A DNA stretch of 41,793 nucleotides from positions 1 through 41,793 of IMG/VR virus record IMGVR_UViG_3300005563_000014. The stretch is one strand, 5' to 3'. This stretch comes from a virus. Shown here piece after piece: positions 12,127 to 35,753 of this stretch. Within the stretch, counting starts at the first letter, position 1; each line of letters begins with the position of its first letter. A program made the translations under genes and the position numbers. Under the pieces are notes generated by a model. That model was not told where the DNA came from, did not search any database, and saw only the letters and a list, made by a program, of their open reading frames with translations.

Positions 12127-12627
12127 CTACGCGAACAGCTCGTCTATAGTTGGCTCTTGGGGGATTTCCGGCTCCGGCCGGGGTGCGGTCTTGCCTTTCA
12201 CTCGCTCCAGTAGCTGCGCCACTTTGTCTTCGTCTTTCTTGCGAAGCGCGCCGTCGTTGACGCGCACCCCGGCCGAGAGCACCGACGCCATCACCTCTTT
12301 TTTGAGGCTCATCAGCTTGAGCGTGTCGGCCGTGGTCGCGTCCTCGGGCAGCGTCATGTCCATCACGGCGCGGGCGAAGGCCAGGCTCGATCGAAGCAGC
12401 CCCTCGAAGTCCGGGGTGTCGCTTAGAAAAGCAAGCCCTTCGCGAAACCCAGGGAGTGAAGTGTCGGGAGCTGCTTCTTCAACCGCTGGCCGATGTCCGG
12501 TCTCCAGAACGGGCTGTTTGGAACTTCGAGGCTTTCGAGGGCTCGGTACGCTCTGCTTCGCGAGTCTCTCACGTTCGAGCCGACGCCGCTCCCTACGAGT
12601 AAGTAATCGCCCGCTGTCGTCAGGCAT
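12127..12627 (-). CDS. Hypothetical protein, last gene of late operon
   Basis: The 166-residue ORF overlaps the ATP-grasp gene by 205 bases. Its N-terminus is very basic (TRRERRRLERERLAK) and Pro-rich; residues 69-150 are helical and look like a genuine domain (TPDFEGLLRSSLAFARAVMDM...). The overlap is long, and a start further in (GTG-ATG near residue 87) is possible. No family is recognised. Confidence 0.55.
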   Translation of the reverse strand: MPDDSGRLLTRRERRRLERERLAKQSVPSPRKPRSSKQPVLETGHRPAVEEAAPDTSLPGFREGLAFLSDTPDFEGLLRSSLAFARAVMDMTLPEDATTADTLKLMSLKKEVMASVLSAGVRVNDGALRKKDEDKVAQLLERVKGKTAPRPEPEIPQEPTIDELFA

Positions 12628-13760
12628 GGCAACGTCACCACCTTTCCGTTCACGTCGGTTGGCGCCTCGCCCTGCTGCACCTCGCAGGGGTGCAGGTTAT
12701 GGCGGTAGCGGTTGGAGTTGTTGAGCTTATAGATCGGAATCCCATGCACGTCTTTGCGCGTGAACTTGGAGAACGGGAAGTCAGGGATCGCCATCACCAC
12801 GCCGCAAGCGGTCTCGTCCATCCGAAACGGGTCGGTCGGATTGCCTTCGGCGAGATCGAACAGCCAGTTGGCCGGGTCCTCGCCCTCCTTCAGCATCGCC
12901 ATCTGAATGTTGAACGTCGGCCAGCCCGGCCGCATGGTGAACTCCAGCGGCCACGGCGTCCCGTCTTCGCCGATGATGCAGTTAACGTCGACGTACCCCA
13001 CGTAGTCGAGATCGTGGAGCTTCTGCTCCACCGGCTTGAGCACCAGGTCCGCCAGCTTCGACTTGCGGGTGGCGCGGATGATCGTTCCCATCTCGCCGGT
13101 CGCAGGGCCGGTGTCGCCGGCCATCAGCTTCTTGAACTCCCAATTCTCGTGCCAGCCGGGGATGAACCCCCCAGGGCCAAACCAGCCGCCCACGGCCATC
13201 TCGACGCCGTTTACACGCTCCTGGAGAATGAAGGCGTCCTTGTGGCGGTGGTTCTTTTTCCACCGCTCCAGCATGTACACCATGTCGGCCGGAGACTTCG
13301 CGACGTAGGACAGCGACTTGTCCTCTTCGTCGCCGCAGGGCTTCGAAACGAACGCCCGGCCCTCGCGCTTCACGTAGGTGATGGCCGAGTCGTAGTCGTC
13401 GAACATTTTGAACGGCGGCACCTTAATGCCCACCGATTTCAGCACCTTCTGGCCTACGTCGCGCTTGGTCTCCCATTCGGCGGCCTCGACGCTCGGACCG
13501 ACGATCGGAACCCCCTCCGCGCGCCAGCGCTCCATGTCGTGCAGGTAGCGGGTGTTGTCGGCGAGCACGATGAGGTCGGCCCACCGAGCCCACGGTGCAA
13601 AGTCGTCGACCAGCCGGTTCTTGCCGACCAGCAGCCCCTTGCCGATGCCTTCGGTCATTCGGGTCTGGCGGATGAACCAGCGCACGTCATGGCCCGCGTC
13701 CTGGCACCGGAGCGCAAAGTCGGTCATCAGCCCGGCATTGTCGACAAGCAGCAGTCTCAT
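12423..13760 (-). CDS. PurD-like ATP-grasp ligase
   Basis: The 445-residue protein resembles phosphoribosylamine-glycine ligase: a Rossmann-like start (RLLLVDNAG), the lid/ATP region KRDVGQKVLKSVGIKVPPF and FVSKPCG, the signature GDTGPATGEMG at 215-225, and a metal-site stretch PLEFTMRPGWP (Glu273, Arg277). The rest of purine synthesis is absent, and it lies in the virion operon, so it may ligate a small molecule or peptide rather than make GAR. A GGGAG site sits 10 bases before the ATG. Substrate is unknown. Confidence 0.85.
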   Translation of the reverse strand: MRLLLVDNAGLMTDFALRCQDAGHDVRWFIRQTRMTEGIGKGLLVGKNRLVDDFAPWARWADLIVLADNTRYLHDMERWRAEGVPIVGPSVEAAEWETKRDVGQKVLKSVGIKVPPFKMFDDYDSAITYVKREGRAFVSKPCGDEEDKSLSYVAKSPADMVYMLERWKKNHRHKDAFILQERVNGVEMAVGGWFGPGGFIPGWHENWEFKKLMAGDTGPATGEMGTIIRATRKSKLADLVLKPVEQKLHDLDYVGYVDVNCIIGEDGTPWPLEFTMRPGWPTFNIQMAMLKEGEDPANWLFDLAEGNPTDPFRMDETACGVVMAIPDFPFSKFTRKDVHGIPIYKLNNSNRYRHNLHPCEVQQGEAPTDVNGKVVTLPCLTTAGDYLLVGSGVGSNVRDSRSRAYRALESLEVPNSPFWRPDIGQRLKKQLPTLHSLGFAKGLLF

Positions 13761-19322: not shown

Positions 19323-19778
19323 CTAACCCGCCAGTTTAGTGTAATAAATTTCGCTCGGGCGGTATCCGTCCTTGCGGAGAAGATCGTTGAGCGCGGAATC
19401 GTTGGGCGCGAGGTAGACGAACTTCTTGACGCCTTGGAGCTTGAGCCGCTTCTCGCTCTCGACGATCAGCTTGACCCCCGCATTGCCCCTGCGGCTTTCG
19501 GGCCGAACATAGATGGCGCTATTGAAGGCGTACTTGGTCGTCTTGAAATGCAGGTGGTTCGACACCTCGAAGATCGCGTACCCGGCAAGGTCGCCATCAT
19601 CGCGAAGCGCGAACGATTTGAGAATTCCGCACGTCTCCAGCGTCCTCCCCTGGTTCCAGTCGGGGTCGAACGGCACGGCTTCGCGGTCGATCGAGCACTC
19701 GGACCAGTGGGCGAACATCAGGGCTTCGAGACCGTCCTCGATCATCCGGTCGAGGGTCTCGGGCTCAACCCGCAACAT
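19323..19778 (-). CDS. GNAT-like acetyltransferase
   Basis: The 151-residue protein is taken from ATG 19778, 14 bases inside the upstream gene; a longer start at 19871 would read a shadow of that gene. The core shows a GNAT pattern: LAGYAIFEV, SAIYVRPESRRGNAG (acetyl-CoA loop RRGNAG at 96-101), then LAPNDSALNDLLRKDGYRPSE. It probably acetylates a small molecule or protein. With the adjacent oxygenase-like gene it forms a two-gene modifying pair in the late operon. Confidence 0.7.
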   Translation of the reverse strand: MLRVEPETLDRMIEDGLEALMFAHWSECSIDREAVPFDPDWNQGRTLETCGILKSFALRDDGDLAGYAIFEVSNHLHFKTTKYAFNSAIYVRPESRRGNAGVKLIVESEKRLKLQGVKKFVYLAPNDSALNDLLRKDGYRPSEIYYTKLAG

Positions 19779-20271
19779 CGAGCGCCATCTCAAGCACGAT
19801 CTCGTGAGCGGTGGAGGGGCCGTTGAAGTTGGAAGCCGACACCGCGCCCTTGTGGTCGGCCACGGTCGCAATCCACGGCGCCGGAGCCCACGTCTCTTCG
19901 TCGGAGTAGAGGCGGAAAGCCGGGGCGGGGTTGAGGAGAACGTGAACGCGCATGAACCCGGCAGGGTCTATGCTGTCGTCCCTGAACCAGCCGCTGTAAG
20001 CTCCGGGCTCGAAGGCCCGGACATATGCGAACACGATTTCCGCCGGCTGCGGGAGCGCGCGGATCCGCTGGCCTACTTTGTGGAGCAGGCTCTGCGCTGA
20101 CTTCCAGCCTTTGAAGACCCCGCTCTCTTCGCGATCATTGATCAGTTCCAGCACCCTAACCTTGTGGTCGTGAGGCGCGGGGCTCTCGATCAGGTGCTGC
20201 TTCTGCTTGGCGATGTACGAAGTGTAGAGGCCCGAGAGGTCGTAGTACCCGATGCCGGCGAAACGCGGCAT
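19765..20271 (-). CDS. 2OG-Fe(II) oxygenase-like protein (tentative)
   Basis: The 168-residue protein resembles aspartyl/asparaginyl beta-hydroxylase-type cupins: MRVHVLLNP with His110, then ETWAPAPWIATVADH (His140) and a HEIVLE tail (His156). In that family two histidines and an acidic or Arg residue hold iron and 2-oxoglutarate. The match is to the pattern rather than to clear identity, so function is tentative. It is followed on this strand by the GNAT gene and preceded by a 49-residue protein. Confidence 0.45.
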   Translation of the reverse strand: MPRFAGIGYYDLSGLYTSYIAKQKQHLIESPAPHDHKVRVLELINDREESGVFKGWKSAQSLLHKVGQRIRALPQPAEIVFAYVRAFEPGAYSGWFRDDSIDPAGFMRVHVLLNPAPAFRLYSDEETWAPAPWIATVADHKGAVSASNFNGPSTAHEIVLEMALDVAG

Positions 20272-33785: not shown

Positions 33786-35753
33786 TTACCTTCTTGCCGA
33801 TATGTATCGGCGCCCCGTGTCCGTCATTCCGTAGGAAAGATCCTCGCGGTCTTCCATCGCGCCCGTGCCCGTCAGCGCGACGAAGCTCTCCAGCGCTTCG
33901 ACTATGGCCCGGTACGGCCCCGGCTCGGCGGTTGCTTCGAGCACCCCGCGCGTGTTCACGTACCGGCAGTAGCCGCTGGAAAGCCCGTTCAGCGTCCATG
34001 TGGCCGAGCTGGAGATGCGCACGGCAGGAAAGCCCTTGCGGTTTCTCTCCAGAAGATCGGAAAGGAGAGGCTGCCCCTGCGCCGGCAGGCCGCCGCGCTG
34101 CGAATTCATCGGAACCCTGCGCGCTGCCTGCACCAGTCCGACGTTCGAAAACTTATCGAAGTGGCTCGGGGGGAACACCGCCGTCACTTGCTGGCCCGCT
34201 TCCAGCCGGGCCTCGGTGGCGATGCGCGAGAAGGTATCGACTTCGTTTCCTTCATAGAACCAGTCCGCGAGCACATAGAGCACTCCGTCGCTCCACTGGA
34301 TAAGCACCGCGCCGACGCCGTTCTGAGTCGTCTGAACCGCCAGCCACGGCTTCGCCCCCTGCACCCTCCGAAGGCCCTCGAAGATATGCTCCTTGTGGAA
34401 GTTCTCGTGGATCGGCTGTCCGGGCTTCAGCTTCAGCGCGTAGGCAAGGGCGTTGGGAGTGTCGATGCGGCCGGTGGGGAAACCGAGAAGCTGGTCACGA
34501 AGGTCGGGAAGCTCCTTGGCGAACAGCACCTGCTTGGCCTTGAAATAAGGCTGCAACCCGCCGATGAAGTCGAGCTTGCCCTTCGGCGCCCGCATCGAGC
34601 GGAACGGGATCGAGATCCCGCGCTTCACCTGCTCCGACCGGATCGGCTGGAGCAGGAATTCGTTCAGGCCGTCTTCCTCGACCCCGATCCACACCGGGGG
34701 CAAATCGCCGGCCGCGCATTCGAATATCGCGTCCACGATCGCGTCGGGCAGGAGCTGCTTTCCCCAAGCGTCCCACACCACGAGCTTGTGCCCGGCCCAA
34801 CTCCACGCTGCGAACCCCGTCGTCGCCGACTTGGCGTTCGTGGTTCGCGCCGGGTCGAACATCGCATAGACCGCCTGCCAGGTGCGAACAGTCGGGTGAA
34901 CAACGATGTCCTCGGGGCGGAAGGTCCGCGACTTGTTGCCGCGGGCCATGCACAGGTACTCGCGCTCGAAATCGTCATACAGCCCCTGCTTTACGAACGT
35001 GTCGCGAAGCTCGTCGATCTTTTCGAGGGGGAACCGATCGGCCCACGTCGACCGCCTTTGCCCTTCCCCGTCGAGATGCTCGATCGGGAAGACCTTGCTC
35101 TCCCACCCCGGCGCTTCGAGGAGGCGAACCGCCAGCGCGTCATTGTCGAGGGGCGTGGCCGCCACGCGAACGAAGGCGTTGACATCGCAGGCGGGCAGGA
35201 GCTCAGCGAAGAACCATTGCCGGGTGCGAGCGCGGCGGTCCTTGTCCGACACGCTCTCCATCGTCTCCACGTCGTCGCAGAACACTGCGTCGGGGCGAAT
35301 ATCCTCGAACTTGATCCCGCGCAGCGCCTGCCCCCGGCCGAGCGCCTTGATCCTCACCCCGTTCGAAAGCACGATTTCGCCGTCGGCCCAGGTCGGACCT
35401 TTCAAGTCTCCAAACAGCGTCATCAGGTGCTCGTTGGTCTCAATCTCGCGCTTGATCGCGTGGACGCGCTCGCACGACCGCTCGAACGTTTCCCCGATCA
35501 CCAGCGCGTTCTTGAACTCGCGGAAGCCCGCCCGGATCGTGATCGCTTCTTCCGCGATGGTCGACTTGGCCCCGCCCCGGAACACCATGTCGATCGACTT
35601 CGGCACCTCGGGGTTGTGCCAGTCGAGGATCATCTGGCGGTGGAAGTCCTGGGTGATGTTCGTGTGGCGGTGCGGGAACAGAACCTCATGCGCCAGCACC
35701 CGGTCCCGGTATAGCCGGTCGAATAGCTCCTGGTGGGCGTCGAAGTGAAGCAC
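33786..35753 (-). CDS. terL: Large terminase subunit
   Basis: The 655-residue protein has the ATPase and nuclease halves of TerL. Walker A is RGGAKST (59-65, Lys63), Walker B is DAVFCDD (Asp160-Asp161), and ATPase motif III lies near VAATPLDND. The nuclease part contains MFDPART (first acidic residue), GVEEDG and LDFIGG. It packages DNA into the head. It starts at GTG 35753. No small terminase is clearly recognised upstream; the 45- and 44-residue proteins are candidates. Confidence 0.93.
   Translation of the reverse strand: MLHFDAHQELFDRLYRDRVLAHEVLFPHRHTNITQDFHRQMILDWHNPEVPKSIDMVFRGGAKSTIAEEAITIRAGFREFKNALVIGETFERSCERVHAIKREIETNEHLMTLFGDLKGPTWADGEIVLSNGVRIKALGRGQALRGIKFEDIRPDAVFCDDVETMESVSDKDRRARTRQWFFAELLPACDVNAFVRVAATPLDNDALAVRLLEAPGWESKVFPIEHLDGEGQRRSTWADRFPLEKIDELRDTFVKQGLYDDFEREYLCMARGNKSRTFRPEDIVVHPTVRTWQAVYAMFDPARTTNAKSATTGFAAWSWAGHKLVVWDAWGKQLLPDAIVDAIFECAAGDLPPVWIGVEEDGLNEFLLQPIRSEQVKRGISIPFRSMRAPKGKLDFIGGLQPYFKAKQVLFAKELPDLRDQLLGFPTGRIDTPNALAYALKLKPGQPIHENFHKEHIFEGLRRVQGAKPWLAVQTTQNGVGAVLIQWSDGVLYVLADWFYEGNEVDTFSRIATEARLEAGQQVTAVFPPSHFDKFSNVGLVQAARRVPMNSQRGGLPAQGQPLLSDLLERNRKGFPAVRISSSATWTLNGLSSGYCRYVNTRGVLEATAEPGPYRAIVEALESFVALTGTGAMEDREDLSYGMTDTGRRYISARR

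Follow-up and report, generated by a model that had tools for sequence, protein, structure and literature searches.

PurD-type ligases are small-molecule enzymes. The residues through which the PurD of Aquifex contacts ATP, Mg and glycine have been reported (PMC8880213), and a curation of archaeal purine genes judged that haloarchaeal PurD-like proteins with losses similar to those described here are not GAR synthetases (PMC3261824). We analysed a PurD-like gene in a virus record of 41,793 bases (hereafter the window, that is, the whole stretch of DNA under analysis), which is probably complete because it carries a direct terminal repeat of 110 bases. The original prediction had placed a PurD-like ATP-grasp enzyme at positions 12423-13760, and an open reading frame on the minus strand spans exactly these positions (Table 1). 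In the literature available to us, we found no account of a PurD-like protein from these phages.

The early genes of the window run rightward and comprise a helicase, a PD-(D/E)XK exonuclease, SSB, a family A DNA polymerase, a primase-helicase and a weakly integrase-like ORF. Leftward from the large terminase (33786-35753), the late operon comprises the major head protein, an SU10-type adaptor, tail proteins, the endolysin and tail spike, a GNAT protein, three large virion-type proteins and, as the final large gene before the two operons converge, the PurD-like gene. In line with the claim that the gene stands alone, the ORFs of the record that were searched include no further purine gene; nor did Pfam or PHROGs reveal amidoligase or glutamine amidotransferase partner genes among these ORFs. 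The gene had also been described as lying next to the ejection proteins, and a gp16-like gene is indeed directly upstream; the label 'ejection protein', however, derives from size, gene order and a weak M15-peptidase match and not from a curated family match. The match in question is a motif at residues ~50-120 of the gp16-like protein (HMTDNARDF ... HIHIE; Pfam Peptidase_M15_3, E = 0.0012, below the cut-off), which suggests a virion-borne peptidoglycan hydrolase. In most relatives, the gp13-16-like block opens with a GNAT-fold gene; in the window, the listed start of this ORF is probably too early and the true start internal, given that the alignment opens at MLRVEPETL. The small ORF at the 3' end of the PurD-like gene overlaps it by 205 bases in a different frame and might, at a guess, encode the small terminase subunit.

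Table 1. Coordinates of the PurD-like gene and its neighbours in the window
Feature	Position	Strand	Basis or remark
PurD-like ATP-grasp ligase (putative), 445 aa	12423..13760	-	ORF; Pfam, NCBIfam and PDB matches; model
gp16-like large virion/ejection-type protein, 1018 aa	13903..16959	-	named by position and size; directly upstream of the PurD-like gene, in one operon
gp15-like protein, 360 aa	16959..18041	-	synteny only
gp14-like protein, 425 aa	18041..19318	-	synteny only
GNAT-fold protein heading the gp13-16-like block	19323..19871	-	Pfam Acetyltransf_1, E = 1.7e-7; PHROG acetyltransferase for two relatives; alignment
Small conserved gene, 166 aa, overlapping the 3' end of the PurD-like gene	12127..12627	-	ORF and comparison

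Searches of Pfam (GARS_A, E = 9.6e-10), NCBIfam (TIGR00877, purD, E = 1.6e-24) and PDB sequences agree and, at the level of sequence, identify the window protein as a true homologue of PurD rather than a chance match. Its TIGR00877 score of 86.6 bits is nevertheless below the curated cut-off of 288 bits. Both GARS_A and GARS_C were found in 41/41 family members, and GARS_N in 0/41. The AlphaFold2 model of the protein (pLDDT 94.1, pTM 0.92) places the PurD fold over its whole length: the best 15 Foldseek matches in the PDB are all PurD (TM up to 0.76/0.80), followed by PurK and then by biotin carboxylases. The original prediction had proposed a structural comparison with PurD and RimK-like ligases, and neither RimK nor Ddl is among the best PDB matches to the model. 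In BFVD there was no close viral structure (best TM 0.46/0.54).

We compared the residues of 29 phage and 33 cellular PurD-like sequences with those of 11 genuine PurDs. The core residues E97, K140, E187, K210 (as aligned), E273 and R277 are kept in all sequences of the three groups (29/29, 33/33 and 11/11), K148 is likewise part of the unchanged ATP/Mg core, and by alignment the conserved core residues correspond to the contacts of the Aquifex enzyme (PMC8880213). The features of the ATP-grasp superfamily, namely the ATP-binding lysines and an acidic Mg ligand, are thus present, with a confident model. The claim that the metal-site region is kept holds for one ligand of the Mg pair E286/N288 of PurD (N288, E286 and R290 are given in Salmonella numbering): the acid persists as E273, whereas N288 is replaced by T275 in 62/62 phage and cellular relatives, and there is a new acid, D258. 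Similarly, the protein does carry the predicted signature GDTGPATGEMG, which differs from that of PurD: GPATGE stands where PurD has GPNTGG, and the E is invariant in the phage family.

In both phage and cellular relatives, PurD residues K105 and E187 are replaced by R and Q (one M), G229 by E (two D) and Y271 by D (one N). At the glycine site, the aspartate D214 (also given as D212) is E, and E295 (also given as E292) is mostly T or L. The PS00184 motif R[LF]GDPEx fails, the window protein reading R-P-G-W-P-T, with its aspartate (D293) replaced throughout the phage family and mostly by W or Y among the relatives. The R-E-H of the phosphate-binding GGREH (PRA) loop is absent in the 62 relatives and present in nearly all of the 11 PurDs. 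New residues of the family are D258, N260, E223 and H357. With scattered exceptions, the 29 phage and the 33 cellular sequences have these replacements in common, whereas the 11 PurDs have none of them. As judged from the alignment, the substrate-binding residues of PurD are systematically replaced in the phage family; the active site and GAR pocket are not fully conserved in sequence, and the predicted substrate other than PurD's is accordingly borne out at this level.

Two short motifs alone retrieved at least 499 stretches with relatives from IMG/VR. Where enough upstream DNA is present, the PurD-like gene is preceded by a large protein of roughly 500 to 1,800 aa, sometimes with one small gene in between, and this large protein by gp15-, gp14- and GNAT-like genes. 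Among the 69 scorable distinct contigs, the start of the PurD-like gene overlaps the previous gene by exactly 4 nt in 33, and the gap is at most 10 nt in 43, which suggests translational coupling with the preceding gene; in the window itself, 142 nt separate the gp16-like and PurD-like genes. In three loci (L022:9639-10004, L025:9648-10004 and L033:9624-9998), another small protein (118-124 aa), marked by a conserved HE(L/A)(I/V)EA motif, lies between gp16 and the PurD-like gene; the two that were tested had no family match except a weak primase hit. The PurD-like gene is under strong purifying constraint: in comparisons of close phages, substitutions are mostly silent (dN 0.07-0.10, dS 0.66-0.81, dN/dS 0.11-0.15). 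The PurD-like proteins of alignment A1 are 46-89% identical to the window protein, compared to 19-28% among the adjacent gp16-like proteins, which, in these alignments, is the picture of an enzyme under constraint next to virion proteins that evolve fast. Of 50,697 records of isolated phages, MW202796 (from a spring sample, no host given) contained the only good match. Remote matches whose contexts were inspected were rejected as host DNA, being bacterial purD, mostly beside purine genes. Phage-labelled records including MT836023, MT835525 and OQ572412 carry bacterial purD beside purine genes and resemble host DNA.

Among 15 near-complete contigs selected solely by capsid identity (54-69%), 11 contain the PurD-like gene. 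Of the four that lack it, three have the whole block readable and keep the GNAT, gp14-, gp15- and gp16-like genes; the fourth starts inside gp16. All four have a small gene directly after gp16 (one read by hand), the C-terminal half of which is related to the 166-aa gene of the window (profile E = 3e-9, from a one-sequence comparison). Since that 166-aa gene follows the PurD-like gene, the ligase is, by this gene order, a dispensable accessory cassette that was either gained or lost at a single fixed site. The gp16 proteins of the four phages are all nearest to a single sub-group, so that the absence may be a single event. Five long contigs chosen by DNA-polymerase similarity contained no PurD-like gene, which indicates that the gene tracks the virion module and not the replication module.

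A genome scan yielded two cellular-looking matches with 30% identity. In profile searches, the family occurred in 14/380 sampled genomes of the phylum of the first match (titled Ryanbacteria, CPR) and in 41/196 of that of the second (titled Micrarchaeota), with further copies on a Halarchaeum plasmid, in Sphingomonas (a split copy) and in Roseomonas, where the gene adjoins a type III polyketide synthase and an aminotransferase. About 30 CPR/DPANN contexts showed no conserved neighbour genes, the PurD-like gene being solitary. Genuine PurD above the cut-off was also present in 13/30 tested CPR/DPANN genomes, in several on the same contig as PurF, which makes the cellular PurD-like gene a paralog separate from PurD. 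Other genomes with a PurD-like gene, such as G401, gave no PurM or PurF match, although they may be incomplete. One CPR-phylum genome (L155, G137:C3) holds two tandem PurD-like copies as well as genuine PurD. In the tree, PurD, phage PurD-like and cellular PurD-like proteins form separate groups (SH-aLRT 100, 99 and 92), the cellular sister clade comprising Patescibacteria, Micrarchaeota, a haloarchaeon (the Halarchaeum plasmid protein WP_123078225.1 groups inside it) and Alphaproteobacteria with the same residue changes as the phage family. This topology is consistent with a single origin of the phage branch.

We favour, with somewhat better than even confidence, the reading that the product is an active ATP-grasp carboxylate-amine ligase of PurD ancestry that is not a GAR synthetase and acts late, more likely on a small metabolite than on a virion protein. 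Sequence and model show the homology and fold, the kept catalytic core, the lost PurD substrate residues, the operon position and the separate cellular paralog clade; the activity, substrate class and timing are inferred. ATP would phosphorylate a carboxylate held by the retained arginine R277; the acid is perhaps an amino acid, because acidic residues, E208 and possibly also D258, are still found at the place where the amine of glycine sits in PurD. In the next step, the acyl-phosphate would react with an amine that is not phosphoribosylamine and that the remodelled N-terminal domain would bind. The sequence makes it unlikely that the acid/amine pair is PurD's, but glycine itself could still be the acid, because R277 is retained and D214 has changed no further than to E. 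Synthesis of the ligase would fall late in infection, alongside the ejection-type proteins and often from start and stop codons whose overlap suggests translational coupling, and the ligase would act in the infected cell. A small metabolite is a more likely substrate than a virion protein because PurD-type ligases are small-molecule enzymes, because solitary cellular genes have the same active site, and because related phages do without the gene. As a wider proposal, to which we give slightly less than an even chance, the unnamed family of PurD-related ligases in a large group of environmental phages, CPR, DPANN, haloarchaea and some Alphaproteobacteria would perform one undescribed amide-forming reaction, with a phage branch of single origin that comes into use as infection ends, beside the DNA-ejection machinery.

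A virion protein was one of the two substrates originally suggested. The ligase might act as an amidoligase on a virion or ejection protein, e.g., by adding an amino acid to the adjacent gp16-like protein; we consider this unlikely. A purely metabolic enzyme would not usually be encoded in the late operon, and this position could point to a virion target, as could the fixed position directly behind ejection-type genes across diverse phages, the frequent 4-nt overlaps, the GNAT gene at the head of the same block, and the protein-modifying ATP-grasp enzymes proposed in other phages (PMC7824862). Conversely, the four capsid-related phages without the gene keep the GNAT/gp14/gp15/gp16-like block where it is readable, the poorly conserved gp16-like protein offers no obvious conserved target, and the cellular relatives have no conserved neighbours, so that a virion substrate is so far not supported.

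As a special case of the small-molecule reading, the enzyme might serve counter-defence or superinfection exclusion by modifying a host signal or an envelope precursor at a late stage of infection. Accessory presence or absence at a fixed site would fit, and a cell-wall or superinfection role has been suggested for the amidoligase and GATase of phage phiEco32, as cited in PMC10580990. The PurD-like protein had no match in PADLOC, a library that covers defences rather than counter-defences, and on balance we regard this special case as rather improbable. The known routes by which phages modify bases draw on a variety of ligases and transferases, and a role in making a hypermodified base or nucleotide, the other substrate originally suggested, can be imagined on those grounds; it is so far not supported and appears very improbable, as tests of ORFs in the terminally repeated 41.8-kb record turned up no thymidylate-synthase-like, hydroxymethylase or base-kinase gene. 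A role as a true GAR synthetase that raises purine synthesis in the host, as its full-length homology and its kept ATP core and glycine-binding R277 might imply, is scarcely credible given the missing GARS_N domain, PRA loop, PS00184 aspartate and Mg ligand N288, the score far under the cut-off, the coexistence with true PurD in cells, and the exclusion of haloarchaeal PurD-like proteins with such losses by published curation (PMC3261824).

The family occurs in phage contigs numbering in the hundreds and in some bacteria and archaea with tiny genomes and no detected purine-synthesis genes, and homology makes the protein easily mistaken for PurD, from which the residue differences listed above provide a simple means to tell it. 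If our preferred reading, a ligase other than GAR synthetase, is true, the gene should not be counted among the purine auxiliary metabolic genes, and there is a widespread amide-forming reaction still to be discovered.

Among known systems, the phage protein resembles PurD/GAR synthetase (TIGR00877; PDB 2YW2, 2XCL, 1GSO) in its whole-length fold, GARS_A and GARS_C, the ATP-binding lysines and acids, the Mg ligand E286 and the substrate arginine R290, and differs in lacking a GARS_N match, the GGREH loop, E295 and a purine operon, and in the changes N288 to T, D293 to W/Y, D214 to E, G229 to E and Y271 to D. The haloarchaeal 'extra' PurD-like proteins Hlac_1553 and rrnAC0307 reportedly share the divergent N-terminal P-loop and the loss of the Mg site and PS00184 aspartate (PMC3261824); like WP_123078225.1, they are cellular and stand outside any virion operon. 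Compared by published description, Hlac_1553 and rrnAC0307 are a lead only as family members. The ATP-grasp/amidoligase/GATase clusters of the LUZ24-like phage UFV-P2 and of Pa11virus TC6 also contain phage ATP-grasp ligases without an assigned substrate. The UFV-P2 protein, however, has 291 aa, and its gene lies with those for an amidoligase and a glutamine amidotransferase among early genes on the positive strand, whereas the phage PurD-like ligase is a stand-alone late gene of PurD architecture. D258 lies on the strand before the E-x-T strand, which we take, as a lead only, to be where Ddl and RimK place an acid; unlike RimK/Ddl-type ligases, the phage protein has its best PDB matches in the order PurD, then PurK and biotin carboxylase.
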